Positions 32,704-48,519 of a stretch of 64,000 nt of DNA are shown here, in pieces. The notes under the pieces are model-generated. The model was not told the origin of the DNA. It did no database searches and saw nothing but the letters and a program-made list of their open reading frames with translations. The position numbers were made by a program, and so were the translations under genes. The DNA is from Gordonia terrae (lineage in GTDB: Bacteria > Actinomycetota > Actinomycetes > Mycobacteriales > Mycobacteriaceae). The stretch spans positions 3,596,001 through 3,660,000 of the forward strand of contig NZ_CP016594.1 of the NCBI RefSeq assembly GCF_001698225.1, given 5' to 3'. Positions within the stretch are counted from its first letter, which is position 1; the number at the start of each line of letters is the position of its first letter.

Positions 32704-33224
32704 GCGCGCTTGACGCCGTTCGTCGTACCGGCCGGCGGCAAGGCCGCGTGGGTACCGAAACTGCGCGCGTGATAGGTCAGCGGTGCGATCGTCTCGCTGG
32801 CCACGTCGACGACCCGGCCGAACACGACGATGTGGTCGGCGACCTCCGCTGTGTGCATGACCTCGGCGGCAAGCCAATGCGGCACGTCGGCGATGCGCGG
32901 TACGCCCGCATCGACTCGCCACGACACCCCGTCGAACTTGTCCGCGCCCTTCCGGGCGAACTGTCCGGCGAGCCTCGACTGCGTGCTGCCCAGGACGTTC
33001 ATCCCGAAGACCCCGGCGTCCAGCACCAGACCGAGCAGTTCAGACCCTCGATCGAGTGAGACCAGAAGCGACGGAGGCGTCATCGACAACGATGCGAAGG
33101 CACTCACTGTCGTGCCGTGTGGACGCTGTCCGTCCATGGCCGTCACCACCGCCACCGGCGTACACACCGTGGCCATGGCGTCGCGGAATCTGGCGGTCAG
33201 GTCATCGACCTGCTGAGCGATCAT
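32700..33224 (-). CDS. Flavin reductase (HpaC/HsaB-like)
   Basis: 174-residue FMN-binding split-barrel reductase supplying reduced flavin to a partner monooxygenase. Core segments: FRDAMATVCTPVAVVTAMDG, GTTVSAFASLSMTPPSLLVSL and the conserved VFGMNVLG strand. The partner is most likely the HsaA-like oxygenase at 36162-37364 in the same direction. ATG 33224 has GAAAGGA upstream. Overlaps esterase copy 1 by ATGA. Confidence 0.9.
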   Translation of the reverse strand: MIAQQVDDLTARFRDAMATVCTPVAVVTAMDGQRPHGTTVSAFASLSMTPPSLLVSLDRGSELLGLVLDAGVFGMNVLGSTQSRLAGQFARKGADKFDGVSWRVDAGVPRIADVPHWLAAEVMHTAEVADHIVVFGRVVDVASETIAPLTYHARSFGTHAALPPAGTTNGVKRA

Positions 33225-33252: not shown

Positions 33253-34149
33253 TCACACCGAGAGGTTCTTCCGAAGGAACGCGCCGGCTTCGTCAGCTGC
33301 CTGGATTCCTTCGGGCAGAATCGACGAGAAGAGGGGCCACACGTGAACCATGTCGTCGTACAGCGACACCGACGCCGATCCACCGGCTTCGACGATCTTT
33401 GCCGCCGCTCGGCGCGAATCATCGCGCAGAACCTCACCTGATCCGACCATGAACAAGGCCGGGGGCAGGTCCTTCAGCTCCGCGAACAGCGGAGATGCCT
33501 GCGGGTCGGCGGGATCGTGACCCTGCAGATACGCCGCGCTCACATTGCCGATCGAACCCCGGGACACAGCGATGTCCTTGCCGTCGAATTCGTCGATACT
33601 GTCGCCGCTTGCTGTCAGGTCGAGCAGCGGCGAGATGAACACCGCAGCGGCGGGCAGGTTTTCACCCTTGTCACGGAGGGCGACCAGCGCGCCGAGCACC
33701 AGCCCGCCGCCGGCCGAATCGCCGCCGACCGCGACATTGTGCGCACCATGACGTTCGACGAGCGCGCTGATCACCGCAACCGTGTCGTCCGAGGCTGCCG
33801 GGAACGGATGCTCGGGCGCCCGCCGGAAGTCGGCGAGTATCGCCGTCACCCCCGAGGCCCGCGACAGGTTGTGTCCGAGCTCCTGGAAGCCGCGGGCGCT
33901 GCCCATGATGTTGCCGCCACCATGGAACCAGACGAGGACCTTGTCCTCCGCCGCCCCCTCCGCCGCGACGCGCAGCACGGGAACTCCGCCGACCTCGTCC
34001 TCGGACGGTTCGACACCCTCGGGCAGTGCGAATTGCAGGAACAGTCGATCGTAGGCCTCGCGTAGGTCGTCGACCGTCGCTGTCGCGGGGTCGGGGAAGC
34101 CCTCGAGGTACATCTTCTCAACGCGTTCGAGCGCAGGTGTCCTGGCCAT
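33253..34149 (-). CDS. HSL-type alpha/beta hydrolase (esterase), copy 2
   Basis: 298 residues, same family as the gene at 31768-32703. Oxyanion motif VWFHGGGNIMGS, nucleophile GGDSAGGGL, base His in DDMVHVW. The architecture and many positions match copy 1, so they look like an old duplication with different acyl pockets. ATG 34149 has GGAGGA. The upstream 16-base tandem repeats (34156-34203) sit directly before its ribosome-binding site and may control it. Confidence 0.9.
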   Translation of the reverse strand: MARTPALERVEKMYLEGFPDPATATVDDLREAYDRLFLQFALPEGVEPSEDEVGGVPVLRVAAEGAAEDKVLVWFHGGGNIMGSARGFQELGHNLSRASGVTAILADFRRAPEHPFPAASDDTVAVISALVERHGAHNVAVGGDSAGGGLVLGALVALRDKGENLPAAAVFISPLLDLTASGDSIDEFDGKDIAVSRGSIGNVSAAYLQGHDPADPQASPLFAELKDLPPALFMVGSGEVLRDDSRRAAAKIVEAGGSASVSLYDDMVHVWPLFSSILPEGIQAADEAGAFLRKNLSV

Positions 34150-34220: not shown

Positions 34221-36086
34221 TCACAAGGCGTCGACGGAGAGGTCCATCACCGAATCGTCGACGTCGCGGGCGATTGCGGATTCGGCGATCACCACGGGCA
34301 ACACGTTGCGAGCGAAGAACTCGGCGGCGGCCACCTTGCCCTCGTAGAACGCGCGGTCTCGGCTGCGCCCCGCCTGCGCCGTCGCGAGTGCATCTCGCGC
34401 GACGTCGGCGCCGCGGAGAAGCAACCAGGCCACCACGAGGTCACCGAGCATGAACATGAGGGGCGTGGCATTCAATCCGACGCGGTAGACGTTGGTCGCG
34501 CGGCCACCTTCGGACCGCGGATCAGAGGCCGTCAGGTCGGCGACCATTCCGATCACCACGTCGCGGACGGCCCGGGCAGCCTCCGCCAGCAAGGCGCTCT
34601 CCCCCGCCGGCCCCTGTTGTCCGTCCCGACCGGCGAAGCTGCTGATCTCGCCGAAAAGATGATCGACGGCGACACACTTGTTCCTCGCGATCTTGCGGAA
34701 GAACAGGTCTTGCGCCTGCATCGCCGTCGTGCCCTCGTACAGGGTGTCGATCTTCGCGTCGCGCACGTATTGCTCGATCGGGTGGTCCTGCAGGTAACCC
34801 GAACCTCCCAGGGTTTGCAGCGATTCGGTACCGAGGACTGTCCACGACCGTTCGGAGCCATAGCCCTTGACGATCGGGAGAAGGAGATCGTTCACCGCCT
34901 CGGCCAGTCGGGTGTCGGAGCCGTCGGCGGCACCGATCGCGATCTCGTCCTGCCACGAAGCCGCGTACAGAACCAATGACCTGAGACCCTCGGCATAGGC
35001 CTTCTGCGTGAGCAGGGAGCGTCGGATGTCCGGATGGGCGGTGATGGGAACCCGTGGGGCGCCGGGATTCGAACCCTGAGCGAGGTCTGCACCCTGCACC
35101 CTGTCCTTGGCGTACTCCAGGGCGTTGAGGTATCCCGTCGAGAGTGTCGCAATCGCTTTGCAGCCCACCATCATCCGTGTGTCCTCGAGTACGTCGAACA
35201 TCTGGTTGATCCCGTCATGGACCTCACCGAGGAGCCACCCGCGCGCCGGCCCGTCCGCGCCGAGCGTCATCTCGCAGGTCGCCGACACCTTGACCCCCAT
35301 CTTCTTCTCGATCCTGGTCGCATACACCCCATTGCGCTCACCCGTGAGTTCGCCGGTCGCGACGTCGAAGTGATACTTCGGCACCAGGAACAGGCTGAGG
35401 CCCTTGGTTCCGGGTCCACCCGCTCCCTCGACCCCGACCGGACGGGCGAGCACGAGGTGGAGGATGTTGTCGGCCAGATCGTGCTCGCCGGCGGTGATGA
35501 ACCGCTTCACCCCGACGAGGCTCCACGTACCGTCGTCGTTGCGCGTTGCGGTTGTCTTCCCGGCGCCGACGTCCGAACCCGCATCCGGTTCGGTGAGCAT
35601 CATGGTCACACCCCAGTGTCGCGAGGCGACGATCTCCGCGATCCGCTTGTCGCGCTCCGTTCCGCGTCGCCAGACCACCCGGCTCCCGGTCGGGAAGGCC
35701 AGGTAGGTCCAGAGGGTCGGATGAGCCCCGAGGACGAACTCCGCCAGCGCCCAGTTGAGCGAACTCGGTGCGGCGGTGCCGCCGAGCTCGGGAAGCACGC
35801 GAAACCGCCACCACTCGGCGTCGAGCCACGTCTTGTAGGTGGACGCGTAGGACGCCGGTACCGCAACTGTTCCCGCGGCGGGATCGAAAGTGGTCTCCGC
35901 GCGGTCGGAGTCGGCAAAGGAGTCGGCGAGGCGCTCTCGTGCCAGCTGCTCCACTTCCCGCAGAGCCATCCGCGCGGTCTCACCGTCGACTTCCCGGAAC
36001 GGTCCGACGCCGAAAACCTGGTCGCGACCGAACAACTCGAACAAATTGAACTCGACGTCGCGCAAGTTACTCCGGTAGTGCCCCAC
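34221..36086 (-). CDS. Acyl-CoA dehydrogenase, long FadE5-like form
   Basis: 621-residue flavoprotein oxidising acyl-CoA to enoyl-CoA. ACAD signatures: MLTEPDAGSDVGA (FAD/substrate region) and the catalytic-base region with Glu451 in TLYEGTTAMQAQDL. The extra ~200 residues compared with 380-residue ACADs are typical of the FadE5/AidB-like long group with a C-terminal helical extension (DVVIGMVADL onward). GTG start 36086 with AGAGGTGA. In the ACAD11/Lva scheme such an enzyme could use a 4-phosphoacyl-CoA, but ordinary beta-oxidation is equally possible. Confidence 0.92.
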   Translation of the reverse strand: MGHYRSNLRDVEFNLFELFGRDQVFGVGPFREVDGETARMALREVEQLARERLADSFADSDRAETTFDPAAGTVAVPASYASTYKTWLDAEWWRFRVLPELGGTAAPSSLNWALAEFVLGAHPTLWTYLAFPTGSRVVWRRGTERDKRIAEIVASRHWGVTMMLTEPDAGSDVGAGKTTATRNDDGTWSLVGVKRFITAGEHDLADNILHLVLARPVGVEGAGGPGTKGLSLFLVPKYHFDVATGELTGERNGVYATRIEKKMGVKVSATCEMTLGADGPARGWLLGEVHDGINQMFDVLEDTRMMVGCKAIATLSTGYLNALEYAKDRVQGADLAQGSNPGAPRVPITAHPDIRRSLLTQKAYAEGLRSLVLYAASWQDEIAIGAADGSDTRLAEAVNDLLLPIVKGYGSERSWTVLGTESLQTLGGSGYLQDHPIEQYVRDAKIDTLYEGTTAMQAQDLFFRKIARNKCVAVDHLFGEISSFAGRDGQQGPAGESALLAEAARAVRDVVIGMVADLTASDPRSEGGRATNVYRVGLNATPLMFMLGDLVVAWLLLRGADVARDALATAQAGRSRDRAFYEGKVAAAEFFARNVLPVVIAESAIARDVDDSVMDLSVDAL

Positions 36087-36161: not shown

Positions 36162-37364
36162 TCAGTCCTCGGCCCGTGCGTAGATCGGCAGGAGTACCGC
36201 CGCGGAGTCGACGAGCATCTTGGGATCGACCAGCAGGTGCTGTGTCGCGACGTGCATGTCCCGCACGTAGCGGCCGAGTGTGCTGGTGGAACCGATGCTC
36301 TTGCTCCCACCCCAGCGATGGGCGAACTCCACCGCGTCCAGGGCGACCTCGTGCACCCACGACAGCATCTGGGTGACGCGGGCGACGTGCTCGGGAGTGA
36401 TCGGCTCACCCGCGGCCACAGTATTCTCTGCCGTCGTCGTGACGTCGTAGACGTAGAGTCGGGCAGCGCGGAGATTGGCTTCCTTCCGGGCGAAGTCGAT
36501 TCGGAAGAAGTCGGCTTCGCCCACTGGGATCGTGTAGTTGGGACGCATCTTTCCCGTCGTCAGGTCGGCGACCAGTTCCAGTGCACGAGTGGCGATGCCG
36601 AGTGCGATCGAGGCGTGCGGCAGTCCACCGGCCAGTTCGTTGGTCAGTTGGTACATGACATCCGGCCGCGTCGCCGTGCCGCCGAAGGTCGGTGTCGTGT
36701 ACTCGGCCGGTACGAACTGTTTGGTCACCCGGTAGTCATGGCTGCCGGTGCCCGCGAGACCCCAGACGTCCCAGTTCTTCGTGAACTCGACCTGGTCTTT
36801 GGGCATCAGAGCGATGCGTGCCTGTGGCTGACCGTTCTCACCCAGAATCGGAGCACCGTTCTCGTCGGCGACGATGAAGCCGGCTCCGATCCAGGTCGCA
36901 TGGTCCGAACCGCTGGCGAAGGAATAGTCGCCGTCGATGATGTAGCCGCCGTCGACCTGGATGCCCATGTGCCGGGGCAGGAGCTGACCGGCCGCGATGA
37001 AGGGACGATCGGCGCTGAACACGGTCGCCGCGACCTCCGGTGCAAGGTAGCCCACGACGCCGGCAGTACCCCACTCGCTGGCCATCCAGGCCCAGCCCAC
37101 CGAGGCGTCGGCCTTGGTCACCTCCTCGAAGACGCGCATACCCTCGCTGGGCAGCAGACCCCCACCCCCCAGGTCCTCGGGGATCAACATTCCGTGCAAA
37201 CCCAACTCGACCAATGCATCGGCCACGGGCTTGGTGATGGTGCGCTCCCGTTCGATCGCCTCGGCCTCGTCGCGGATCAGCGACGCGATCGAGCGAGCAC
37301 GCTCGAGGTAGTCCGCCTCCCTCGAGGACGCTTGGGTGGCTTCGGGGCTCAGAACTTCGGTCAT
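36162..37364 (-). CDS. HsaA-like flavin-dependent monooxygenase (ACAD-fold, group D)
   Basis: 400 residues in the acyl-CoA-dehydrogenase fold of two-component oxygenases such as HsaA and DszC-like proteins. N-terminal helices (DEAEAIERERTITKPVADAL), GMLIPEDLGGGGL and ASVGWAWMASEWG resemble HsaA. The central barrel has GSDHATWIGAGFIV, and the usual ACAD catalytic Glu region is missing, in line with oxygenase rather than dehydrogenase activity. Needs reduced flavin, probably from 32700-33224. Last gene before a 299-base divergent promoter. ATG 37364 follows GGAAGG. The substrate is unknown; phenols and sulfur compounds are typical of the group. Confidence 0.82.
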   Translation of the reverse strand: MTEVLSPEATQASSREADYLERARSIASLIRDEAEAIERERTITKPVADALVELGLHGMLIPEDLGGGGLLPSEGMRVFEEVTKADASVGWAWMASEWGTAGVVGYLAPEVAATVFSADRPFIAAGQLLPRHMGIQVDGGYIIDGDYSFASGSDHATWIGAGFIVADENGAPILGENGQPQARIALMPKDQVEFTKNWDVWGLAGTGSHDYRVTKQFVPAEYTTPTFGGTATRPDVMYQLTNELAGGLPHASIALGIATRALELVADLTTGKMRPNYTIPVGEADFFRIDFARKEANLRAARLYVYDVTTTAENTVAAGEPITPEHVARVTQMLSWVHEVALDAVEFAHRWGGSKSIGSTSTLGRYVRDMHVATQHLLVDPKMLVDSAAVLLPIYARAED

Positions 37365-37489
37365 GACGATGCCTTCCGTGCAGAGATGTCCGTCCGCCGT
37401 GGCCGCTTCGATCCAGCGGGACACGACCGGCGTCGGGTGAACTCTCGGTGTTCGACGTTCCCCCGCCGAATCACCGGATGTGAGTAAGC

Positions 37490-37663: not shown

Positions 37664-38704
37664 ATGCGCATCGGCACAGTTCTCGGCCACGGCCGAGATT
37701 TCGATCAGATCGCCTCCGAGACAGTGGATTACGAGTCAGTCGGGCTCGATTCGGCAACTCTCGGCGAGGCCTACACCTTCGACGCGGTGTCCCAGCTCGG
37801 ATTCCTGGCCGCGCGGACCACGTCGATCGAGCTCGCCACGGGGATTCTCGCGCTCGACGCACGAACTCCCGCAACGCTGGCGATGACCGCGGCCGGGCTC
37901 GACTACGTGTCGAAGGGGCGGTTCCGGCTCGGGATCGGCGCCTCGGGACCCCAGGTCGTGGAAGGATTCCACGGCGTCGCGTTCGAGCACGCCGTCGGGA
38001 AGACCCGCGAGACCATCGAGATCTGCCGCACGGTGTGGCGACGGGAACCGCTGCGCCACCAGGGCCGCCGATTCCAGATCCCCGTTCCGCCCGATCGTGG
38101 AACCGGTGTGGGCATACCCCTCAAACTGATCAATCATCCGGTGCGGCCGGATATCCCCATCTCCGTGGCCGCACTTGGTGAGACCATGGTCGCGCTGAGC
38201 GCCGAACTGGCACAGGGGTGGGAACCGATCTTCTTCTATCCCGGGAAGATGCAGGATGTCTGGGGCGATGCCCTGCGTCGCGGCAAGGCCAGACGCGATC
38301 CGGCCCTGGGAGATCTCGACATCATCGTCCGGTTGCCGTTCGCCATCGTCGACGATGATTCCGCGTGGCTGGATCGTGCCCGCCCCCAGCTGGCGCTCTA
38401 CATCGGAGGAATGGGGTCGCGCGAGAAGAATTTCTACAACTCGTTGGCGCGACGGTACGGGTTCGACGCGGAAGCCGCCTCGATCCAAGACCTGTTCCTG
38501 TCGGGCCGTCACGCGGAAGCTGCGGCGGCGGTACCCGATGAACTGGTTCGCGCCACATCGCTGATCGGGTCGGCCTCCTACGTTGCCGAACGTGTAGCCA
38601 TGCTCGCCGAACTCGGCGTCGGGTTGCTCAACGTCGTTCCGATGGCCGACACCCACACCGAACGCCTTGCCGCCGTCGAGTCGCTTCGAGCACTCGTCGA
38701 CTGA
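37664..38704 (+). CDS. LLM-class (F420- or FMN-dependent) oxidoreductase
   Basis: 346-residue luciferase-like barrel protein. Typical segments: LAARTTSIELATGILALDARTPATLAMTAAGLD and the FRLGIGASGPQVVEGFHG loop, followed by the long insertion (IPLKLINHPVRPDIPI). Actinobacterial members of this branch mostly use cofactor F420 for hydride transfer, some FMNH2 for oxygenation. It lies 24 bases before the Baeyer-Villiger gene, so the pair is cotranscribed; it may reduce an enone or oxidise an alcohol feeding that enzyme. Start ATG 37664. Confidence 0.87.
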   Translation: MRIGTVLGHGRDFDQIASETVDYESVGLDSATLGEAYTFDAVSQLGFLAARTTSIELATGILALDARTPATLAMTAAGLDYVSKGRFRLGIGASGPQVVEGFHGVAFEHAVGKTRETIEICRTVWRREPLRHQGRRFQIPVPPDRGTGVGIPLKLINHPVRPDIPISVAALGETMVALSAELAQGWEPIFFYPGKMQDVWGDALRRGKARRDPALGDLDIIVRLPFAIVDDDSAWLDRARPQLALYIGGMGSREKNFYNSLARRYGFDAEAASIQDLFLSGRHAEAAAAVPDELVRATSLIGSASYVAERVAMLAELGVGLLNVVPMADTHTERLAAVESLRALVD

Positions 38705-38728: not shown

Positions 38729-40657
38729 ATGACCCCCACGCCGAAACCCAACCCGCACCTCGACCGCGAGACTGTGCACCGCGCAGTCTCCGCGGGCAAC
38801 GTCGGCTGCCTGCTGCCGGTTCTCTATCAGCTGACCGGCGAGGAGAAGTGGCTGTCGGCCCCGTACACCCCGAAGTCGCCCAGGGGTTTCGAGGAGCTGA
38901 ACGACGGCGGTCTGCCGCCGGAGATCCTCGCCGAGATCCACGACGCGGTGACCGACGCGGTCCTGGACTGGTGCCACGGGAAGCCGCCGGCCGGCCCCAC
39001 CCCTGCCGGTGCTGAACTCGCCCGGCTGATGAGCGTCTCCATGGGTGAGCCGATCGGGGAGGATCACGCGCCGATGATCGCCGAGCAACTCGGCTTCGCC
39101 CCGTACCAGCCATCCGGCATCAGGGGCCGTATCCGGGACTCCCGCACCGACTTCGGTGTCGTGATCGTCGGTGCCGGGATCTCCGGTCTGCTGTGCGCGA
39201 TCAATCTCGAGAAGGCCGGCGTCCCGTACACCGTCTTCGACCGCAATGCCCATCTCGGTGGCACTTGGTGGGCCAATCGGTACCCCGGCGCTCGTGTTGA
39301 CATCCCGAGTGATCTCTACTCGTTCTCGTTCCACCCCAAGAACTGGTCGGAGTACTTCGCACGACGCGACGAGATCTTCGAGTACGTGTCGGACGTGGCG
39401 CGCACGCACGGGATCATCGAGCGAATCTGCCTGCAGCACAGCGTCGACTCAGCGGTGTGGGACGACGCGGACCAGCGGTGGGTTCTCGCGGTCACCGGAC
39501 CCGACGGCACCCAGCAGGAGATCAGCGCGACGGCGTTGGTGACCGCCGCTGGTCTCCACAGCACGCCGAACATCCCCGCATATCCCGGTACCGCGGAATT
39601 CACCGGGCAGATCGTCCATTCCGCGGAATGGCCCGCCGATCTGGACCTGACCGGCAAACGGGTCGCCGTGGTCGGTAGCGGAGCGAGTGCGATGCAGCTC
39701 GTCGTGGCCATCTCCGAGCAGGTCGAGTCGATGGCGATCGTTCAGCGACAACCGCAGTGGATCACACCGAACGAGCATTACTTCGCACCGTCGGATCCGA
39801 TCAAGCACTGGTTGTTCGACAACATCCCGTTCTACCGCGGCTGGTACCGATTCCGTCTCTACTGGCTCTACACCGAACGTACCTTCGCCGCGCTGCCCGT
39901 CGATCCGGACCGCGCCGCGAAGGGCAAGCTGGTCAGCTCGCTGAACGACGCGTTTCGCGCACACTTCACGGCCTACCTCGAGCGGCAACTCGACGGCAAC
40001 GCCGATCTGATCCGCCGCACGACACCCGACTACCCACCGTTCGGCAAGCGTTTGCTCATCGACAACGGCTGGTTCGCCACCCTGCGCAAGGACCATGTCG
40101 AGCTGCTCACCGACCGCGTCGACCGGCTCACCGCGACCGGGATCGTGACCGCCGACGGCGAGGCACGGGAGATCGACGTGCTGATCCTGTGCACCGGGTT
40201 CCAACAACAGCGGTTCCTGTTCCCGATGGAGATCCGTGGCCGTGAGGAAACGTTGTTGCGCGACAGTTGGTCCGACGACGACGGCCGGGCCTACCTGGGT
40301 ATCACGACGCCGGGCTTCCCGAATCTGTTCTTCCTGTACGGCCCCAACACCAATCCGCCCGGGGGCAGCTACATCACCATTGCCGAGGCCCAGGTCCGTT
40401 ATGTCGTGGAGTCGATTTCGCGGTTGGTCACCGAAGACCTGGCCTCGATCGAATGCCGGCCGGAACCGTATGAGCGGTACAACCAGGAACTTGATGCGGC
40501 CAACGATGCGATGGTCTACGCCATGGACGGGGTCGACAGTTACTATCGCAACACCAGCGGCCGCGTGGTGACCAACTCGCCGTGGCCGGTCCACGAATAC
40601 TGGTCCCGCACAGCATATCCGGACCCGATCGACTTCGTGACCACCGCGCGCACCTGA
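38729..40657 (+). CDS. Baeyer-Villiger monooxygenase (HAPMO-like, with N-terminal extension)
   Basis: 642-residue type I flavoprotein monooxygenase converting ketones to esters or lactones with NADPH and O2. FAD Rossmann motif GAGISG (148-153), BVMO fingerprint FTGQIVHSAEWP (291-302, F-x-G-x3-H-x3-W-P), NADPH motif GSGASA shortly after. The ~135-residue N-terminal extension before the FAD domain and the overall length match 4-hydroxyacetophenone monooxygenase-type enzymes. No signal peptide. With nearby esterases, its ester product could be split into an alcohol and an acid. ATG 38729. Confidence 0.93.
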   Translation: MTPTPKPNPHLDRETVHRAVSAGNVGCLLPVLYQLTGEEKWLSAPYTPKSPRGFEELNDGGLPPEILAEIHDAVTDAVLDWCHGKPPAGPTPAGAELARLMSVSMGEPIGEDHAPMIAEQLGFAPYQPSGIRGRIRDSRTDFGVVIVGAGISGLLCAINLEKAGVPYTVFDRNAHLGGTWWANRYPGARVDIPSDLYSFSFHPKNWSEYFARRDEIFEYVSDVARTHGIIERICLQHSVDSAVWDDADQRWVLAVTGPDGTQQEISATALVTAAGLHSTPNIPAYPGTAEFTGQIVHSAEWPADLDLTGKRVAVVGSGASAMQLVVAISEQVESMAIVQRQPQWITPNEHYFAPSDPIKHWLFDNIPFYRGWYRFRLYWLYTERTFAALPVDPDRAAKGKLVSSLNDAFRAHFTAYLERQLDGNADLIRRTTPDYPPFGKRLLIDNGWFATLRKDHVELLTDRVDRLTATGIVTADGEAREIDVLILCTGFQQQRFLFPMEIRGREETLLRDSWSDDDGRAYLGITTPGFPNLFFLYGPNTNPPGGSYITIAEAQVRYVVESISRLVTEDLASIECRPEPYERYNQELDAANDAMVYAMDGVDSYYRNTSGRVVTNSPWPVHEYWSRTAYPDPIDFVTTART

Positions 40658-40798: not shown

Positions 40799-41206
40799 TC
40801 AGTCCGGCAAACCGTTTCGCAAGGCGGTCGAGATCTGCTCGCGGACATCGACTTCGGTGAATCGGAGCACGGCGTCGACCGTCTTCGCCGATGCGCCGTC
40901 GTTCCGATAGGTCGACGCGAGCGCGGTCGAGATCGCACGACGCCGCTGCCGCAGGCCCTCGACCCCGGCTCCTGACACATCATGACCGAGTCCCAATTGC
41001 CGGGCCAGGTCGTTCGTCTCGGCGATGCACCGCGACAGCCGTTCGGTATCCCAATCGATGCGATCGGCAAGGTTGTCGAGGGCCTCGATGACCGCGGCCA
41101 GCTCGAGCCGTGCGGTCGTGTCGGTCAGGTGGCCGGCAACGCGGTGTACCAGAGTGTCCCGGATCGTGGCGAAGAGCTGCCCCGGCTCGGTGGAGTAGAC
41201 GGTCAT
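40799..41206 (-). CDS. Small helical protein partnered with an APH-type kinase (LvaB-like candidate)
   Basis: 135 residues, predicted mostly helical: QLFATIRDTLVHRVAGHL, then ARLELAAVIEALDNLADRI. This pattern (short N-terminus, helix, then a helix ending in a conserved acidic/basic run) recalls the DUF6285-type proteins that accompany LvaA-like kinases; the match is from memory and weak in sequence. The ATG starts 3 bases after the kinase stop, so the two are co-translated. In Pseudomonas putida levulinate catabolism, LvaB is required with the kinase LvaA. Function here is inferred from context. Confidence 0.6.
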   Translation of the reverse strand: MTVYSTEPGQLFATIRDTLVHRVAGHLTDTTARLELAAVIEALDNLADRIDWDTERLSRCIAETNDLARQLGLGHDVSGAGVEGLRQRRRAISTALASTYRNDGASAKTVDAVLRFTEVDVREQISTALRNGLPD

Positions 41207-41209
41207 GGC

Positions 41210-42256
41210 TCAGTATCCCCATTCTCTGTCCCGCAGCATCTTCGACAGCCAGCCGATGCTGTAGTAGACGCTGTGCGCCATGTTCGAGTAGCGCAGTTCA
41301 TCGCGCTCACCGCACGAGTAGATGTCGACCGCCTGCAGGCATCCGACGGCCGTCTTGGTCAGCGACTGCACGGCCCACCAGGTGAGCGCTTCGGGTTGTG
41401 GGCGCCAGCCTCCCGCCGTCTCGTACTCGTCGAGGAAGGGCTCGAGATCGATCAGCTTGCACAGCAACGGCGAGCGCCCCCTCGAAGTCCGCTGCGCGAA
41501 CCAGGCGATGTCGGCGGTCGGATCGGAGAAGTGGGCGGTCTCCCAGTCGAGCACACCGGTGATGGCGCCGTCGGCGATCACCACATTGCCGACACGGAAG
41601 TCGTTGTGGACGAGCGAGACCCGTCCCGACACCGCGTCTCGGCGATGATCGAGCCAGGCGAAGGCGAGATCAAGAATCGGAATGGGGATGTCGACGACGT
41701 CGCGATAGACCTGCGCCCACTTGTCGTTCTCGTCTTTCCCGGTGTCTTCCGGCGCCGGGACCGGACCGAGCACGGTCAACCCCAGGGTCTGCGGATCGGC
41801 GGCATGGAGACGCGCCATCTCGCGGGCGACATCGCGACCGAGTTGTTCCCGCTCCGCCGGGTCCGGGACCATCCGAGAGATCGTGGGTGGCATCGGGATC
41901 TGCCCGTGCACCTTCTCCATCGCGAACCATCCGCGCGCCCCGGCGGTGGGGACAACGGAGGCGACCACCTTCGGGACGCGCATACCGATGGCGCCGGCGG
42001 CACCGAGCAGCGCGACCTCGCGGGACACGTCGTAGTCACCGGCGATGCCGCTGACGGGTTGCCGCTTCACGGCATAGGTGTCCCCCTCCGGACCTCTCGG
42101 ACCATCCCATGCGACGGTCACGAGGTAGGTCTCCCACGAGTTGCCCTCCCCACGCTTGTCGACATCGGTGAGGCGCAGGGTCCCGGCCGCGTCGAGCGCG
42201 CGATCGAGTTCGGCGGTCAGCTCGCCGAGAAAGCTCTCGGCGGTGGTGGTGGCCAT
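41210..42256 (-). CDS. APH/choline-kinase-fold phosphotransferase (LvaA / ACAD11-kinase-like)
   Basis: 348-residue kinase-fold protein. ATP-binding Lys64 (YAVKRQ), Brenner motif HNDFRVGN with catalytic Asp219 and Asn224, and metal-binding Asp237 in LDWE. Not a drug-resistance enzyme by context: it sits among acyl-CoA genes. Homologous kinases (LvaA; the N-terminal domains of human ACAD10/ACAD11) phosphorylate 4-hydroxyacyl-CoA so that an ACAD can remove phosphate. ATG 42256 shares one base with the SDR stop (TGATG); followed by the LvaB-like candidate. Substrate assignment is inference. Confidence 0.82.
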   Translation of the reverse strand: MATTTAESFLGELTAELDRALDAAGTLRLTDVDKRGEGNSWETYLVTVAWDGPRGPEGDTYAVKRQPVSGIAGDYDVSREVALLGAAGAIGMRVPKVVASVVPTAGARGWFAMEKVHGQIPMPPTISRMVPDPAEREQLGRDVAREMARLHAADPQTLGLTVLGPVPAPEDTGKDENDKWAQVYRDVVDIPIPILDLAFAWLDHRRDAVSGRVSLVHNDFRVGNVVIADGAITGVLDWETAHFSDPTADIAWFAQRTSRGRSPLLCKLIDLEPFLDEYETAGGWRPQPEALTWWAVQSLTKTAVGCLQAVDIYSCGERDELRYSNMAHSVYYSIGWLSKMLRDREWGY

Positions 42257-42714
42257 CAGAAGATCGCCGCCTTCGGCCCGCCACCGTCGACCACGAGACG
42301 TTGTCCTGTCATGTATTCCGAGTCGGCCGACACCAGGAAGGCCACGGCACCGGCGACGTCCTCCGGCCGACACACCCGCCCGGACGGCGACGAGGCGTCG
42401 AGGTCGTCGATGTCGGTACCGCGGCTGGCCGAACCGGCGTTGCTGACCAGCAGATCGACGGCGCCGAGATCGCTCGCGATGGTGTCCACCATCGACTCGA
42501 CGGCCCTCACGTCGTCGATCGACACCTGATAGGCCCGAGCTCTTCCGCCGAAGGCGCCGATCTCGTCGACGACCTCGGCGGCGGCTTGGGCCTCACGGCG
42601 GTAGGTGATCGCGACGGTTGCGCCGTCCCGGGCAAGTCTCGACGCGACCGATCGGCCGACTCCTCGCGATCCGCCGGTGACGAGAGCGACGCGACCGGTC
42701 AATGGCCCCGTCAC
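42256..42714 (-). CDS. Internally deleted short-chain dehydrogenase (probably inactive)
   Basis: 152 residues, where SDRs have about 250. The N-terminal cofactor half is normal (VTGGSRGVGRSVASRL, LVSNAGSASRG) and the C-terminal tail is normal (GRVCRPEDVAGAVAFLVSADSEYMTGQ, then VVDGGG). Everything between is missing: no catalytic Ser, no Tyr-x3-Lys. The join lies near residue 105-112 (DIDDLDASSPSGRV), about 42390-42410, and stays in frame. It is thus a decayed gene or a protein kept for a non-catalytic role. GTG start; overlaps the kinase gene by one base. Confidence 0.8.
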   Translation of the reverse strand: MTGPLTGRVALVTGGSRGVGRSVASRLARDGATVAITYRREAQAAAEVVDEIGAFGGRARAYQVSIDDVRAVESMVDTIASDLGAVDLLVSNAGSASRGTDIDDLDASSPSGRVCRPEDVAGAVAFLVSADSEYMTGQRLVVDGGGPKAAIF

Positions 42715-42833
42715 GTTGTCCCCTCGACACGGCCGGCGGGATCGTTCATCACTTCGTTCGCTCCTTCGTAGGTCTGCGGGTCCGCCTCACGCCGGATGGA
42801 GTGGGCGACACATCGCGGATCGCCGCTGCTCAC
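42711..42833 (-). CDS. Possible 40-residue ORF coupling ligase and SDR genes
   Basis: An ORF from GTG 42833 to TGA 42711 whose start overlaps the ligase stop (GTGA) and whose stop overlaps the SDR start (GTGA). The peptide contains RREADPQTYEGANEVMND and has no known motif. The double overlap would make translation continuous from ligase to SDR. It could be a real small protein, the tail of a gene lost by deletion, or chance; no homologue is known to me. Confidence 0.35.
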   Translation of the reverse strand: MSSGDPRCVAHSIRREADPQTYEGANEVMNDPAGRVEGTT

Positions 42834-44389
42834 GCGTGCGCGCCCGCGCGAGTCGGCCAGTACGCGTCCCGTAGCGGCTTCTTGTAGAGCTTTCCGGTCG
42901 GCAGCCGTGGCATCTCGGCAATGAAATCGAACGACCTCGGGCACTTGAACTTCGCCAGTTCCGCACGGCAGAACTCGGCCAGACGGAGCGCGAGCAGACC
43001 TTGATCGGCGTCGGGGTCGACCGGTTGGATCACTGCCTTGACCGCCTCGCCGAAGTCCTCGTCGGGCACGCCGAAGACCGCGGCATCGAGCACCTCGGGA
43101 TGGGTGACGAGGAGATTTTCCACCTCCTGCGGGTAGATGTTCACCCCGCCGGAGATGATGACAAACGCCTGACGGTCGGTGAGGTACAGGAATCCGTCCT
43201 CGTCCAGGTAGCCGATGTCCCCGATCTTCGACATCGTGCCGTCGGCGTCCCGAGCTTCGGCGGTCTTGCCCGGATCGTTGAAGTACTCGAACGTTGCACC
43301 GACGCCCCGGAACCAGATGGTTCCTGGTACTCGCGGCGGGCATGGGTTCCCGTCATCGTCGAGGATCACCGGCTCACCCATGAACGGACGGCCGACGGTT
43401 CCCTTGTGCGCCAGCCACTCCTCGGGTGTACAGCCGCAGATGCCGTTCGCCTCGGTGCCGCCGTAGTACTCGTAGATGACCGGGCCGAACCAGTCGATCA
43501 TCGCCTCCTTCACCGCCACCGGGCACGGTGCGGCACCGTGCACCACCACCTCCAACGACGAGAGGTCCTGCTGCCGTTCTCCTTCCGGGAGTTTGAGCAT
43601 GCGCGAGAACATGGTGGGAACAACCATGGAATGCGTGATCCGGTGTTCCTCGATGAGGTCGAGGTAGTCACGGGCATCGAACCGCTTCATCACGACGATC
43701 GTCGCGCCGAGACGGATGCCGATGGCCACCGACGACTGAGGCCCGGAGTGATACAGCGGAGCGGGCGAGAGAAAACGCATGCCCTCCCGGAGGTGGAAGA
43801 CCTTCCGACCGAAGTCCTCGATGTCCAGGATCTGTCCCGGGTGCGCGTCGGGCAGATTGCGCTTGATGGCCTTGGGCCGGCCGGTGGTGCCCGACGAGTA
43901 GAACATCGGAGTTCCCAGTCGCTCGTTCTCGCCTGGGGCGTCGCCGAACCCGGCGACAGCCTCGGCGAACGACTCGAATGGTCCGGGCAAGGATGCGAGC
44001 TGGTCGGCGTCGACGAGGAGCCAACGACCCACCGCTGGGCACAACTGCGGTAAGTCTTGTGCAACAACGAGTTTCGCCACTGTTGTGATGACCAGCTTCG
44101 ACTGCGAGTCGTTGATGATGTACGCGGCCTCGCCGGCCGACAGAAACGAGTTGACCGGCGTGTAGAACAGTCCGCTGCGTTCGGCTGCGGACATCGCCAC
44201 GATCATCTCGACGTGATTCTCCATGAACAGGGCGATGTGGTCGCCCGGCTCACATCCGTTCGCACGGAAGAGCGCGGCGAGTCTGTTGGCGCGCGAGTCG
44301 AGGTCCCCATAGGTGAGAATCGCATCGCTGCCCGCCATGATCACGGCCGGGCGGTCGGGGTGTTCGGCGGCGTGACGTCCGGGATACAT
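42830..44389 (-). CDS. Acyl-CoA ligase (AMP-forming, ANL superfamily)
   Basis: 519 residues. AMP-binding motif YSSGTTGRPKA (164-174), YYGGTEANG, the GDIGYLDEDGFLYLTDR hinge region and the C-terminal catalytic-Lys motif PTGKLYKKPLRD. Belongs to the FadD-like medium/aryl group; the chain specificity is unknown. ATG 44389 has AAGGAG seven bases upstream. It likely activates the hydroxy or carboxylic acid that emerges from ester hydrolysis. It heads the downstream gene run with SDR, kinase and small partner. Confidence 0.92.
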   Translation of the reverse strand: MYPGRHAAEHPDRPAVIMAGSDAILTYGDLDSRANRLAALFRANGCEPGDHIALFMENHVEMIVAMSAAERSGLFYTPVNSFLSAGEAAYIINDSQSKLVITTVAKLVVAQDLPQLCPAVGRWLLVDADQLASLPGPFESFAEAVAGFGDAPGENERLGTPMFYSSGTTGRPKAIKRNLPDAHPGQILDIEDFGRKVFHLREGMRFLSPAPLYHSGPQSSVAIGIRLGATIVVMKRFDARDYLDLIEEHRITHSMVVPTMFSRMLKLPEGERQQDLSSLEVVVHGAAPCPVAVKEAMIDWFGPVIYEYYGGTEANGICGCTPEEWLAHKGTVGRPFMGEPVILDDDGNPCPPRVPGTIWFRGVGATFEYFNDPGKTAEARDADGTMSKIGDIGYLDEDGFLYLTDRQAFVIISGGVNIYPQEVENLLVTHPEVLDAAVFGVPDEDFGEAVKAVIQPVDPDADQGLLALRLAEFCRAELAKFKCPRSFDFIAEMPRLPTGKLYKKPLRDAYWPTRAGAHA

Positions 44390-44400
44390 GGGAACTCCTT

Positions 44401-45390
44401 CTACGGGCGGATCGGTCGCAGGAACTCGGCGACGGCCCAGCCGCCGACGCCTTCGGCGAGATCGACGGTCATCTGCCCCATCCGCACCGCGCGGTCCTCG
44501 GTGCGCTGGGTGACCGGGACGAAGTGGCGGATCGTCCCGTCGACCACGATCGTCGGCAACCCCTCTGCCTGGACGACGCCGACGTGGCGCCCTGAGTAGG
44601 TGGATTCGCCGGCGTAATCGGTGAGGACGCGGTAGTCGGTGATCGGGTGGGCGACTCCGTCGGTGGTCAGCACGGCCCCAGCCGACACCCTGATCCCTGA
44701 CTTCTCGTATTCGCCGTAGGCACTGAATGCGGTCCCGTCGGCGAGCCAGCCGGCCACCCATTCCCCGGTGTAGGAATCCCATTCACGCGGACCCCACGAA
44801 TGGTCCCGAAACGACGTCACCTTCTCGAGCACCCAGGTCCGCGTCCCGACCCGGATGGTCCCCGAGAGATGACCGAACTGCTCGTAATGGTCGCTGGCGA
44901 AGGTCGACTCGCCGGGCGTGCAGTCGCCGCCACCGTCGCTGTTGATCACGAACATCGGACTCGATGCCTCGTAGGTGAGCGAGATCTCGCAGTCCTCGGC
45001 GGGCGCGTTCTTGAGAGCGATTCGTCCGTTCTCTGCCATCAGGGACGGATGCGTCACGCGCGCAACCGAGTTGCGGTAGGTGATCGTCGCCTTTCGAGTG
45101 GGCTCGGTGAACACGATCTCGAGGCCTTGACCGGCGAACCCGTCGTTGGTGTCCCGGGGTGTCCGACCCGCACGAAATGCGATCGCGCCGCCCGGCAGCG
45201 TCAGTTGCACCGAAGTCTCGCTGTAGCCGAGATTCGGACGGTTGCCGATGCGCACGAGACCGCCCAATTGCGAGACGGGGTCGACGAAGTTGAAGTAGAC
45301 GCTTTCGTTGAAGTTGTGGACGTCGGCGGGGTCGTGCGTCCCTTCGGCGTCGGCGCCGTACTTGCACACGGTGAACGGCTGGTTGGTCAT
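44401..45390 (-). CDS. Protein of unknown function with lipocalin/CrtC-like C-terminal half
   Basis: 329 residues with no catalytic motif I recognise. The beta-rich sequence includes DHSWGPREWDSYTGEW, reminiscent of the HSWG-x-R motif of carotenoid hydratase (CrtC)-like and DUF7064/7065-type proteins found in catabolic clusters of actinobacteria and sphingomonads; this link is from memory. The N-terminal half (NFNESVYFNFVDP, GGLVRIGNRPNLGYSE) is a separate beta domain. No signal peptide. It lies 11 bases before the ligase start in the same direction, so it shares that operon. A substrate-binding or hydratase role is possible. Confidence 0.7.
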   Translation of the reverse strand: MTNQPFTVCKYGADAEGTHDPADVHNFNESVYFNFVDPVSQLGGLVRIGNRPNLGYSETSVQLTLPGGAIAFRAGRTPRDTNDGFAGQGLEIVFTEPTRKATITYRNSVARVTHPSLMAENGRIALKNAPAEDCEISLTYEASSPMFVINSDGGGDCTPGESTFASDHYEQFGHLSGTIRVGTRTWVLEKVTSFRDHSWGPREWDSYTGEWVAGWLADGTAFSAYGEYEKSGIRVSAGAVLTTDGVAHPITDYRVLTDYAGESTYSGRHVGVVQAEGLPTIVVDGTIRHFVPVTQRTEDRAVRMGQMTVDLAEGVGGWAVAEFLRPIRP

Positions 45391-45417
45391 TGTGCTCCTC
45401 TGTCTGCGGCGATCAGC

Positions 45418-46287
45418 TCAGAAACGCTGCGCCGGCGAAGGATCGAGTGGGGGGAAGACAGCAGGTCGGCGCTCCAGAAAGGACATGACGCCCTCCCGAG
45501 CATCATCGGAGTCGACTCGACCGGCGTAGATTCGGGACTCCTGGGCCGCAGCCGGACCCGGGTGGGAGTGGAGCCACGCGCTCGAGAGCAACCTCTTGGA
45601 CAATGCCACGGACGTAGGCGAGGTGTCCCGGGCGAACAATCGCGCGTACTCATGGGCGACCGACATCACCTGATCGGCTGGGACCACCTTCGTGAGGAAG
45701 CCCGCTTCGTAAGCCTCAGCTGCATCGAAGACTCGGCCCGTCAGCAACCAATCGGCAGCACGACCCAACCCGACCAGTCGCGGGAGGAACCAGGACGACG
45801 CACCTTCGGGGACGACACCCCGCTGAGTGAACACGAACCCGAACCGGGCGTTCTCACTCGCGATGCGGATGTCCATCGCTGCGGCGATCGTCGCCCCGCC
45901 GCCGATGGCATGCCCGTTCAACGCTGCGATGACCGGCTTGCACATCGAGAACAACCGCTCGCTGATCCGGCCCGCCGGCTCACGGTAACCCGTCGGGGTG
46001 TGACCGTCGACGTCCTCGACCAGCGCTCGCGACAGCGTCTCGGGCCCGTCGAGATCGGCTCCCACGGAGAAGGATTCGCCGGCTCCGGTGACGATCACCG
46101 CGCGGACATCAGGATCGCGGTCGGCACGATCCAAGGCATGGAGGGCATCCACGAGCATCTGGACCCGCATGCCGTTGCGGCGCTGCGGAGCATCGAGTGT
46201 GATGACGGCGACGCCATCCGCGATCTCGTAATCCACCTCGTCGTACGATCTGTTCACAGCGCGTTGTGCTGCAGACGAACCCGTCAC
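45418..46287 (-). CDS. Enoyl-CoA hydratase/isomerase
   Basis: 289-residue crotonase-fold protein. The oxyanion-hole segments are FSVGADLDG and NGHAIGGGATIAAAMD; the catalytic Glu is in RGVVPEGASSWFLPRLVG, the second Glu position of hydratases. The first Glu of canonical two-Glu hydratases is replaced by a small residue (GGGATIA), so isomerase or hydrolase chemistry is possible. GTG 46287 overlaps the stop of the preceding SDR. Confidence 0.88.
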   Translation of the reverse strand: MTGSSAAQRAVNRSYDEVDYEIADGVAVITLDAPQRRNGMRVQMLVDALHALDRADRDPDVRAVIVTGAGESFSVGADLDGPETLSRALVEDVDGHTPTGYREPAGRISERLFSMCKPVIAALNGHAIGGGATIAAAMDIRIASENARFGFVFTQRGVVPEGASSWFLPRLVGLGRAADWLLTGRVFDAAEAYEAGFLTKVVPADQVMSVAHEYARLFARDTSPTSVALSKRLLSSAWLHSHPGPAAAQESRIYAGRVDSDDAREGVMSFLERRPAVFPPLDPSPAQRF

Positions 46288-47108
46288 AGCCCGCCACCGC
46301 AGACCAGGACCTGTCCGGTGATGTAACTCGACTCCGGGCTGCACAACAGATAGACGGCCCCGGCCGCCTCCTCGACCGTTCCGGCACGTCCGAGGGCGAT
46401 CCCCTTCGTCGCCGCTTCCATCACCGCCGGATCCATCCCGACCCTGATGTCGCGGTCCTCGACCTTGATCGTCTTCGCCTCAGTGGTCACCGACGTCAGA
46501 CGCGTGCTGATCACGCCGTAGGCCACCGCGTTGGAGGTCACGTTGTAGCGTCCCCACTCCTTGGCGATGGTCTTGGTGAGGCCGACCATTCCGGCTTTGG
46601 CCGACGAATAGTTCGCCTGGCCGGGGTTGCCGAGCAGACCCGAGGTCGAGGAGATGTTGACGACCTTGCGGCAGGGAACCGAACCCTGCTCGCGCTCCCG
46701 TTTGACCGCTGCGCTGATGACCGGTTGAGCGGCGCGCAGGATTCGGAACGGCGCGGTCAGATGCACATCGAGGATGTCGGCCCACTGCTTGTCGGTCATC
46801 TTCTGGATCACACTGTCCCAGGTGTAGCCGGCGTTGTTCACGATGATGTCGACACCGCCGAAGTTGTCCACCGCGGTCGTCACGAAACGGTCGGCGAATT
46901 CGGGGTCGGTGACGCTGCCGATGCAGGCGACCGCCTGCCCTCCTGCTGACTCGATCTCGGCCACAACCTCTTTCGCCGGCTCTGGATCGAGGTCGTTGAC
47001 CACCACCCGAGCTCCCTCGGAAGCGAGCTTCACGGCAACCGCACGGCCGATTCCTCGGCCCGAACCCGATACCAGCGCGACTTTGTCCTGCAGTTTCTGC
47101 ACGCTCAC
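46284..47108 (-). CDS. Short-chain dehydrogenase (3-hydroxyacyl-CoA dehydrogenase-like)
   Basis: 274-residue SDR with intact motifs: SGSGRGIGRA, NNAGYTWD, Ser in NISSTSGLLG, Tyr-x3-Lys in NYSSAKAG. VVNDLDPEP after strand 2 (Asp) favours NAD(H). Resembles FabG-like and steroid or acyl-CoA dehydrogenases in catabolic clusters. GTG 47108 follows GGGAGG. First gene left of a 226-base divergent promoter opposite the thiolase gene. Likely performs the 3-hydroxyacyl-CoA oxidation step next to the hydratase. Confidence 0.88.
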   Translation of the reverse strand: MSVQKLQDKVALVSGSGRGIGRAVAVKLASEGARVVVNDLDPEPAKEVVAEIESAGGQAVACIGSVTDPEFADRFVTTAVDNFGGVDIIVNNAGYTWDSVIQKMTDKQWADILDVHLTAPFRILRAAQPVISAAVKREREQGSVPCRKVVNISSTSGLLGNPGQANYSSAKAGMVGLTKTIAKEWGRYNVTSNAVAYGVISTRLTSVTTEAKTIKVEDRDIRVGMDPAVMEAATKGIALGRAGTVEEAAGAVYLLCSPESSYITGQVLVCGGGL

Positions 47109-47334: not shown

Positions 47335-48519
47335 ATGACGAATGTCTGCATCAGCGGTGTAGGGATAATGCCCTTCACCAAGCCGGGCAAGAGCCAGACC
47401 TATGACCAGATGGGCGCAACCGCCGCGCGCGCGGCGCTCGCCGACGCGGGACTGGACTACTCCGACGTGCAACAGGCCTATGTGGGCTATGTCTACGGCG
47501 ATTCGACATCCGGGCAGAACGCGCTGTACGAGATCGGCATGAGCGGCATCCCGGTCGTCAACGTCAACAACAACTGCTCGACCGGTTCGAGCGCCCTGTG
47601 GTTGGCTCGCCAGGCCGTCGCCGCCGGCACCGCCGACTGCGTGCTCGCTCTGGGGTTCGAGCAGATGCAGCCCGGAGCGCTGGTCAACGCCTACGGCGAT
47701 CGCCCCAGCCCCACCGAGCGTGGCGAGAAGATCGCGCAGTCGCGGCCCGACGGCGACGCGCCCGCACCCATGGCTGCCAAGATGTTCGGTGGCGCAGGCA
47801 TCGAGTACATGGACCGTCACGGAGTCACGGCAGAGGTCTTCGGCCGTGTCTCGGTGAAGGCACGGACCCACGCCGGCCGGAATCCGCTGGCGGTGTTCCG
47901 CGATCCGATCGACCTCGACACTGTGATGACGTCGAAGCAGATCTGGGGACCCTTGACCCTGCTGATGTGCTGCCCGCCGACCAACGGCGCAGCCGCAGCC
48001 ATCGTCTGCAGCGAGGAGTTCGCCCGCGCCCGGGGCATCGACGCCAGCGTCCGCCTCCGCGCGCAATCGATGGTGACCGACGTCCCCGGGACCTTCGACA
48101 CCACCGACATGATGCGTGTAGCCGGCTACGACATGACCGCCAAAGCTGCGGCCGAAGTCTACGAGCTGTCCGGCGTCGATCCGCTCGACATCCCCGTCGT
48201 CGAACTGCACGACTGCTTCTCCACCAATGAGGTCATCACCTACGAAGGTCTCGGACTCACCCCAGAGGGCACCGCGGAGAAGTTCGTCCTCGACGGCGAC
48301 AACACCTACGGCGGTCGCGTCGTGACCAACCCGTCCGGCGGCCTGTTGTCCAAGGGGCATCCACTCGGAGCCACGGGCCTCGCCCAGTGCGCCGAGTTGG
48401 TGTGGCAGTTGCGCGGCCAGGCCGGCGATCGCCAGGTCGAGGGCGCTCGTCTCGCCCTGCAGCACAATCTCGGACTGGGCGGTGCATGCGTCGTGAGTCT
48501 GTACGAGAAGGTGTCATGA
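47335..48519 (+). CDS. Thiolase / lipid-transfer-protein-type (SCP-x) acyltransferase
   Basis: 394-residue thiolase-fold protein of the SCP2/Ltp branch. Nucleophile Cys81 lies in NNNCSTGSSALW; HDCFSTNE and SKGHPLGATG are the other active-site loops. Ltp members in actinobacterial steroid and cholate clusters act as thiolases or, with MaoC-like DUF35 partners, as retro-aldolases. No DUF35 partner is present. The ATG follows GAAAGATGG. Overlaps the first MaoC gene by ATGA, forming one operon with both MaoC genes, the TetR and an SDR. Confidence 0.88.
   Translation: MTNVCISGVGIMPFTKPGKSQTYDQMGATAARAALADAGLDYSDVQQAYVGYVYGDSTSGQNALYEIGMSGIPVVNVNNNCSTGSSALWLARQAVAAGTADCVLALGFEQMQPGALVNAYGDRPSPTERGEKIAQSRPDGDAPAPMAAKMFGGAGIEYMDRHGVTAEVFGRVSVKARTHAGRNPLAVFRDPIDLDTVMTSKQIWGPLTLLMCCPPTNGAAAAIVCSEEFARARGIDASVRLRAQSMVTDVPGTFDTTDMMRVAGYDMTAKAAAEVYELSGVDPLDIPVVELHDCFSTNEVITYEGLGLTPEGTAEKFVLDGDNTYGGRVVTNPSGGLLSKGHPLGATGLAQCAELVWQLRGQAGDRQVEGARLALQHNLGLGGACVVSLYEKVS

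Follow-up and report, generated by a model that had tools for sequence, protein, structure and literature searches.

A candidate ATP-dependent dehydration module in a partly decayed degradation gene run of Gordonia terrae

Which enzyme would expel the phosphate if a kinase of a bacterial degradation cluster phosphorylates a hydroxyl group? This question is raised by a gene run of Gordonia terrae (positions 40799-47108 of a stretch of 64,000 nucleotides, contig NZ_CP016594.1, 3,596,001 to 3,660,000, forward strand; hereafter the window), in which an APH-family kinase is followed by a small protein. Phosphorylation and subsequent elimination with an unusual acyl-CoA dehydrogenase (ACAD) are described for the breakdown of levulinate and 4-hydroxy fatty acids (PMC6692424, PMC11342911, PMC12440821; all papers are cited here from excerpts). 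There, 4-hydroxyacyl-CoAs are first phosphorylated, and an ACAD domain then eliminates (PMC11342911, PMC12440821). In anaerobic sterol breakdown, the dehydration of a tertiary alcohol consumes ATP and is brought about by a kinase together with a C-O lyase activity distinct from it (PMC8449060). The initial annotation of the locus had placed it in the first group, i.e. the lva gene set and the ACAD10/ACAD11 module. This membership is not supported, since an LvaC-type ACAD is missing from the cluster, the short-chain dehydrogenase/reductase (SDR) beside the kinase has lost its catalytic segment and the kinase belongs to a clade apart from the LvaC-paired kinases that were sampled.

The proposed chemistry and its gene run

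We propose, with a probability of about 0.5, that the run 40799-47108 is a degradation operon with an ATP-dependent dehydration module, in which the kinase and its partner phosphorylate and a DUF7065/DUF7064 protein eliminates. The general idea of the initial annotation, that a hydroxyl is phosphorylated in order to leave, fits the gene set, which probably removes a hydroxyl by phosphorylation and expulsion of the phosphate; the eliminating ACAD of that scheme does not fit, and the DUF7065/DUF7064 protein appears to be the likelier enzyme for this step. Kinase, LvaB-like partner and DUF7065 lyase are combined in the proposal because the lyase candidate fits the sterol scheme, while the partner and the CoA context fit the 4-hydroxyacyl-CoA scheme.

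In detail, the genes would be transcribed as one unit, and a Baeyer-Villiger monooxygenase (BVMO) together with esterases may make the substrate. The kinase would move a phosphate from ATP onto a hydroxyl refractory to beta-oxidation, carried by an acyl-CoA or a terpenoid/alicyclic intermediate, and the small partner of the DUF6285/LvaB type would activate it. The putative DUF7065/DUF7064 lyase would then expel the phosphate and leave an alkene, which enoyl-CoA hydratase, SDRs, ACAD/FadE5 and thiolase could process by hydration and beta-oxidation.

The predicted open reading frames (ORFs) sit at the positions given by the initial annotation, which had captured the lower part of the run and missed the upstream DUF7065/DUF7064, enoyl-CoA hydratase and SDR genes. 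On the minus strand, the order is SDR, enoyl-CoA hydratase, DUF7065/DUF7064, FadD4-like ligase, damaged SDR, kinase and the protein of 135 amino acids:

46284..47108, minus strand: full-length SDR, part of the same run
45418..46344, minus strand: enoyl-CoA hydratase (PF00378 8e-49) of either 308 or 279 amino acids, depending on an uncertain start
44401..45390, minus strand: DUF7065 plus DUF7064 protein (Pfam E 2.4e-14 and 3.6e-6), proposed phosphate-eliminating lyase of the superfamily of 25-phosphosteroid lyase (25-PSL)
42830..44389, minus strand: FadD4-like acyl-CoA ligase (83% to Rhodococcus sp. CH91)
42729..42797, minus strand: C-terminal remnant of a deleted LCAD-type ACAD (tblastn and synteny)
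42256..42714, minus strand: SDR remnant, catalytic Tyr-Lys lost (comparison with locus L010)
41210..42256, minus strand: APH-family kinase, catalytic motifs intact (PF01636 E 1.5e-28)
40799..41206, minus strand: small helical putative kinase partner, 135 amino acids, divergent DUF6285/LvaB-type (position after the kinase, remote homology, AlphaFold2 model)

The stop of the damaged SDR overlaps the kinase start (TGATG), and the small ORF begins 3 nucleotides after the kinase stop (TGA GCC ATG), i.e. as close behind it as had been annotated. The ligase of the run was also recognized correctly, whereas the SDR beside the kinase is not a working enzyme, 111 codons being gone.

The kinase and its small partner

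The annotated APH-fold kinase with intact motifs was borne out. AVK64, HND219-x-R-x-GN and LD237WE are invariant in an alignment of six sequences, so that an APH-type kinase with intact catalytic residues, as in LvaABC and ACAD10/ACAD11, is present. The closest solved kinases in phmmer searches are 3dxp (7.6e-12), ACAD11 (8v3v, 1e-9), Rv3168 (3ats, 1.8e-7) and 9fsg (6.7e-7), the last being titled 25-hydroxy steroid kinase (25-HSK) in a fold search. The presumed relation to LvaA/ACAD11 holds as far as ACAD11 is among these structures; in the kinase tree, however, the window clade stands apart from LvaC-paired kinases. This tree has 66 rows, among which LvaA, ACAD11, Rv3168 and 25-HSK do not figure; the broken or partial kinases of L086, L131 and L129 as well as L012 were omitted, and L132 was trimmed to its kinase part (L numbers are our labels for loci). 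Kinases accompanied by small proteins form one group (20 rows, 98/93), which is joined by the L067/L068 pairs (96/94), and 25 kinases of DUF6285 loci form a separate one (100/100). Six kinases adjacent to LvaC-type ACADs, 11 of the L088-L111 clade and one other split off together (100/98, 18 rows). By this tree, the clade of the window kinase does not include any sampled kinase that has an LvaC/ACAD11-type dehydrogenase at its side. At L067 and L068, kinase, small protein and an acyl-CoA ligase stand behind an ABC-transporter-like gene, which makes them another branch of the kinase-partner family.

Scanning named genome contigs with the kinase alignment yielded 41 loci, 16 of which (L071-L086; Rhodococcus, Nocardia, Mycolicibacterium/Mycobacterium and Pseudonocardia) encode kinases at 45-78% identity. 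The small protein directly follows the kinase in all 16, including one broken copy, and this pairing exceeds chance. The broken copy is that of Nocardia jinanensis (L086), where the kinase is split over two ORFs and the small protein is shortened. Within about 9 kb, several loci being cut by contig ends, DUF7065 and an SDR with YTMAK were each found at 14 of the 16 loci and an LCAD-type ACAD at 12. The link of the BVMO to the cluster is loose (more than 50% identity at 4 of the 16; 47% at L084). Many relatives have ligase, ACAD, SDR, kinase and small protein in one run, and Rhodococcus megaplasmids carry the cluster as well (the same 4 plasmid records with a kinase at 60-80% and with the small protein). 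In 6 of 201 genomes of the family to which the window belongs, its own included, a match to the small protein reached E <=0.001; two of these hits are weak and lie away from any such kinase. Because of this rarity, its absence from all 14 other same-genus genomes and the plasmid occurrences, we regard the cluster as sporadic and accessory. The hits in G047 and G110 were taken as chance, no relative of the window kinase being among the genes called around them, and so were weak small-protein hits at L069 and L070.

The small protein itself had been called LvaB-like. It has no Pfam hit and in NCBIfam a chance-level hit alone; PF19802, the DUF6285 profile, was not reported at E limits of 1, 0.01 and 10 for any of eight small proteins that belong to the family or are closely akin to it, nor for the natural kinase-small protein fusion L132. 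Its AlphaFold2 model consists of five helices (mean pLDDT 72.7). The connection to DUF6285 is found through intermediates. In the own genome, the paralogue most similar to the kinase is fused to DUF6285, and the nearest kinases outside the clade by hidden Markov model (HMM) score in the named scan (L087, L090, L091) are such fusions as well. When 396 genomes were searched with a profile of small proteins that includes divergent members (A3), 20 non-self hits emerged; a kinase stands in the locus of four, namely L132 and the DUF6285 proteins L133, L139 and L144. The other 16 hits were taken as chance, their loci having shown no kinase. With an HMM built from 19 close small proteins, L133, a PF19802 protein at 80.5 bits whose gene comes after that of a kinase, scored 24.0 bits compared to a maximum of 14.0 in 36,000 shuffles (34,934 scored), which preserve composition and not the helical pattern. 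After addition of two more divergent members, the alignment with L133 is colinear over about 100 residues. L133 is the one among 18 scored DUF6285 proteins above the best shuffle; of the 16 that did not come from the small-protein search, 10 exceed the 99th and 4 the 99.9th shuffle percentile.

Furthermore, a kinase stands in the locus at 25 of 25 DUF6285 loci examined, of which 22 count, since L087, L090 and L091 were found via the kinase; L058 and L064 are left out, and L057, L062 and L063 duplicate places listed under L139 and L061. A gene beside or fused to an APH kinase, as is typical of DUF6285, is also the rule for the small protein family. Hence, the small protein is very probably a remote homologue of DUF6285, connected through intermediates, although a direct PF19802 match to 40799-41206, the check proposed initially, was negative. 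This likeness would extend to LvaB, which we take to be a DUF6285 protein. DUF6285-type kinase partners are thereby extended to sequences beyond recognition by Pfam. In our limited literature search, no paper naming DUF6285 was found.

The DUF7065/DUF7064 protein as candidate lyase

The gene for the sterol lyase was unknown in 2021 (PMC8449060) and putative in 2024 (PMC11061730), and the excerpt of the former reports no lyase candidate near the kinase gene in Sterolibacterium denitrificans. Now, 25-PSL is in the PDB (9fzn/9g4c), as are entries with 25-HSK as molecule name (9fsg/9ft5). A profile of 13 DUF7065/DUF7064 proteins from kinase loci (A6) finds 25-PSL as its best PDB match (9fzn E 1.6e-12; 9g4c 2.3e-11), followed by AttH (2ich) at 0.68. 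DUF7065 proteins and 25-PSL have the motif R-D-x-S-W-G-x-R in common, in which L089 has R for W. In the window protein, R195, D196 and R202 belong to this motif. The strongest single match is L089 (1.5e-11 alone), a protein encoded one nucleotide after a kinase. Seven A6 rows outside the window clade, L089 included, match 25-PSL at E 6.6e-5. The window protein has in addition a weak NCBIfam hit to the Rv3169 family (E 4.1e-10, 39 bits compared to a cut-off of 150).

The genomic neighbourhood provides a second line of evidence. L083 has contiguous genes for enoyl-CoA hydratase, DUF7065, kinase and small protein, and DUF7065 was detected at 14 of the 22 non-DUF6285 loci of the L088-L111 kinase clade; at 4 it was missed, and the remaining 4 had no gene calls. 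Half of these 22 loci entered the tree, where their 11 kinases were labelled DUF7065 by clade; DUF7065 is beside L089, L093, L095, L096, L097 and L111 and not beside L088, L092 and L110, and it was not scored at L099 and L104, for which gene calls were missing. DUF7065 matches occurred in 49 of 201 genomes; in a survey of 30 of these loci (L152 and 29 other best places), 12 have a kinase that is either fused to DUF7065 or no more than 1.5 kb away. By our estimate, chance would give well under one such locus among the 30, because the own genome holds 20 APH matches in 5.7 Mb. Six fused ORFs were run against Pfam, and each is a single chain of kinase, DUF7065 and DUF7064, with EcKL and APH matches. 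These fusions (L157, L162, L174, L178, L180, L182), which come from the window's family and are not among the tree rows, have about 560-680 amino acids with the APH/EcKL kinase first, then DUF7065 and DUF7064. The kinase-DUF7065 association is independent support for the lyase candidate.

Nevertheless, several observations weigh against the proposed module. The window kinase is no nearer to 9fsg (E 6.7e-7) than to ACAD11 (E 1e-9). As regards the small protein, L133 was itself a product of the profile search for which it serves as evidence, scores of the 16 other DUF6285 proteins are only 1.7-11.0 bits, and direct profile-profile alignment (hhalign) of small protein and DUF6285 was not significant: single pairs gave P 0.0018, 0.00029 and 0.013 with a probability of <=18%, and the best local alignment with a larger set covers 23 columns out of register (P 0.0017). 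Profile-profile proof was dropped as weak and replaced by the scoring of HMMs against shuffles. The 25-PSL score of A6 comes largely from L089, without which it falls to E 5e-6; six window-clade rows reach E 0.13 (14.3 bits; 20,000 shuffles <=7.6) and the window protein alone E 0.22 with phmmer, after an unrelated hit at 0.084. Pfam DUF7065 reaches a 25-PSL fragment at E 0.002, below the cut-off, and the DUF7064 half lies outside the 25-PSL alignment. Since the match weakens without L089 and in the window clade, the DUF7065 protein is described here as a remote relative of 25-PSL. Moreover, 18 of the 30 DUF7065 loci are without a kinase within 1.5 kb. Finally, the window copy has lost the functions of ACAD and SDR, so the pathway may be inactive here.

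In spite of these points, the locus draws attention to DUF7065/DUF7064 as a family that pairs and fuses with such kinases, and offers a direct and testable assignment for this family. A broader generalization is made tentatively and with less confidence than the module itself: DUF7065/DUF7064 could be a broad family of phosphate-eliminating C-O lyases acting with APH/EcKL-type kinases of several lineages, i.e. those with DUF6285-like partners, the L088-L111 clade, which may include Rv3168, and the fusions. If true, ATP-dependent dehydration would be a common, so far unannotated step by which actinobacteria degrade lipids, terpenoids and sterols, and a new architecture of it, with kinase, LvaB-like partner and lyase, would be seen in the window. 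DUF7064 and DUF7065 were named in none of the literature matches listed by our search, which was of limited extent.

Alternative readings, surroundings and known systems

Among the alternatives, a decaying remnant survives best, although we consider it rather doubtful; it holds that kinase and partner are idle here after loss of the ACAD and the SDR, and it is compatible with the other readings, which concern intact relatives. The SDR 42256-42714 is 111 codons shorter than that of L010, by an in-frame loss between two SASRG-type repeats, which lie apart in L010 and are joined in the window. The lost segment holds the catalytic Tyr-Lys, which is intact as YTMAK in the 14 named relatives mentioned above; an open but catalytically empty frame remains. 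Because of this loss, the SDR beside the kinase cannot fill the role of LvaD here, and a working SDR in that position is missing from the window; the other SDR of the run is complete. The closest relative is Rhodococcus sp. CH91 (L071, whose contig is also that of L010); its ligase and kinase genes are separated by those for thiolase, FadB-type protein, ACAD and a complete SDR. An intact cluster is also present in Rhodococcus sp. ZPP. At this place the window has, between ligase and SDR, about 23 codons of an ACAD C-terminus (58% over 24 amino acids, tblastn E 0.14), which we accepted despite the E value because of the syntenic place. Thiolase and FadB are also absent from seven Mycobacteriaceae loci (L077-L082, L085), which kept ACAD and SDR. 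The deletion, the ACAD remnant and the absence of the small protein from the same-genus genomes speak for decay. On the other hand, open frames remain for the kinase, the small protein, the ligase and DUF7065, LCAD-type paralogues (<=53% identity) exist elsewhere in the genome, and the ratio of nonsynonymous to synonymous substitutions (dN/dS) compared to L010 is about 0.18 for the kinase (dN 0.155 / dS 0.88) and 0.33 for the small protein; these values mostly reflect the time before the deletion, because the SDR remnant still gives about 0.15.

Unlikely, and slightly more so, is a strict Lva or ACAD10/ACAD11 pathway, in which kinase and LvaB-like partner would form 4-phosphoacyl-CoA and an ACAD would eliminate, be it FadE5, the LCAD-type enzyme now lost or one of the LvaC type encoded elsewhere in the genome. 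It would agree with a small protein of the DUF6285 type, with the ligase-ACAD-SDR-kinase-small protein run of many relatives, with ACAD11 among the closest solved kinases and with four ACADs elsewhere in the genome that carry the LvaC signature or a variant. This signature was sought as catalytic Asp plus R-H-R helix, RLGPGRIHHCMR / DG-EVH (R626/H634/R637/D753 for ACAD10/ACAD11); as a control, the ACAD of L064, whose best PDB match is ACAD11, shows RLGPGRIHHCMR and DGADEVH. It is absent from the LCAD-type cluster ACADs of relatives (0 of 12) and from the window ACAD at 34221-36086. The latter is the long ACAD assumed to lie 5 kb off: it is present at about 4.7 kb, but of the FadE5 type, and was rejected as LvaC because of its matches to the structures 6kpt and 6kse, the latter named FadE5, and the missing signature. 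Furthermore, three of the four ACADs elsewhere in the genome each have a kinase of their own next to them, and the kinase tree separates the clades. The strict LvaABCDE assignment was rejected because no examined cluster ACAD has the LvaC/ACAD11 signature. The three ACADs in question (C1:1941332, C1:1506734, C1:5284184) are each beside an APH kinase and away from the sole PF19802 match of the genome. That match belongs to the kinase-DUF6285 fusion at C1:5373838-5375130 (L002:6818-8269), which adjoins an ACAD likewise without the signature and is a second, separate kinase-partner system. On a plasmid of Azoarcus sp. KH32C (L122, 1205-6248), thiolase, histidine phosphatase, kinase, SDR and LvaC-type ACAD form one run without a detected DUF6285; it resembles the P. 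citronellolis cluster, for which the excerpt of PMC6692424 gives no lvaB.

Least probable is phosphorylation for another purpose, such as trapping, detoxification or regulation, with DUF7065 devoid of lyase activity and acting in lipid binding or as a hydratase-type protein, a reading favoured by the very diverse substrates of APH-fold kinases, the weak AttH match, the large dependence of the 25-PSL score on L089 and the 18 DUF7065 loci lacking a kinase within 1.5 kb, and opposed by the repeated pairing or fusion of DUF7065 with APH-type kinases and the location amid beta-oxidation genes.

The proposed dehydration module is surrounded by further genes, some of which may supply its substrate or process its product:

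47368..48519, plus strand: thiolase-like protein, divergently oriented neighbour
38729..40657, plus strand: type I BVMO with N-terminal extension (fingerprint FTGQIVHSAEWP; steroid monooxygenase 4ap3 E 6.5e-63)
37664..38704, plus strand: luciferase-like monooxygenase (PF00296)
36162..37424, minus strand: flavin monooxygenase of the ACAD type 2 fold (Rv3094c-like)
34221..36086, minus strand: FadE5-type ACAD, not LvaC-type (6kpt E 2.4e-204; 6kse, named FadE5, E 1.4e-199)
33253..34113, minus strand: alpha/beta-hydrolase-3 esterase
32700..33224, minus strand: flavin reductase
31768..32703, minus strand: alpha/beta-hydrolase-3 esterase

The presence of a BVMO and esterases in the island was thus confirmed, by two alpha/beta-hydrolase-3 esterases and by FTGQIVHSAEWP, which we take to be the type I BVMO fingerprint. 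At L130, the gene at the place of the thiolase-like protein is annotated as 'lipid-transfer protein'. G+C at 28 to 52 kb is 0.65-0.67 compared to 0.67-0.71 in the left flank, and third-position G+C is also lower in most genes there. The literature search gave nothing specific on the substrate of this island.

Compared with known systems, the window is like 25-HSK/25-PSL, whose pathway is described in Sterolibacterium denitrificans, in having an APH-fold kinase and, by a remote match, a protein of the DUF7065 superfamily that would follow the same phosphorylate-then-eliminate logic (PMC8449060, PMC11061730). It differs by a DUF6285-type partner, by a CoA-ester cluster with monooxygenases and by the remoteness of the lyase similarity, and its kinase is likened to 25-HSK by the phmmer match to 9fsg. 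With LvaAB(C) of Pseudomonas putida, in which LvaB is a 12-kDa protein pulled down with LvaA, it has a kinase and a putative small partner in common (PMC6692424), and in relatives of the window cluster genes for SDR, ligase and ACAD accompany the pair. Unlike that system, the window has no LvaC-type ACAD, its SDR lacks the catalytic segment and its small protein is too diverged for Pfam DUF6285. ACAD10/ACAD11 have a related kinase domain (8v3v) and the same chemical logic (PMC12440821, PMC11342911), and differ in the ACAD with the R626/H634/R637/D753 signature, which the window cluster does not contain. A further likeness is that to Rv3168/Rv3169, by the relation of the kinase to 3ats and the weak Rv3169-family hit of the DUF7065 protein. 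Going by their numbering, Rv3168 and Rv3169 presumably adjoin in Mycobacterium tuberculosis. Against this background, what we propose as new is the kinase-partner-lyase architecture of ATP-dependent dehydration, a chemistry already known, which the window would preserve in a partly decayed copy.

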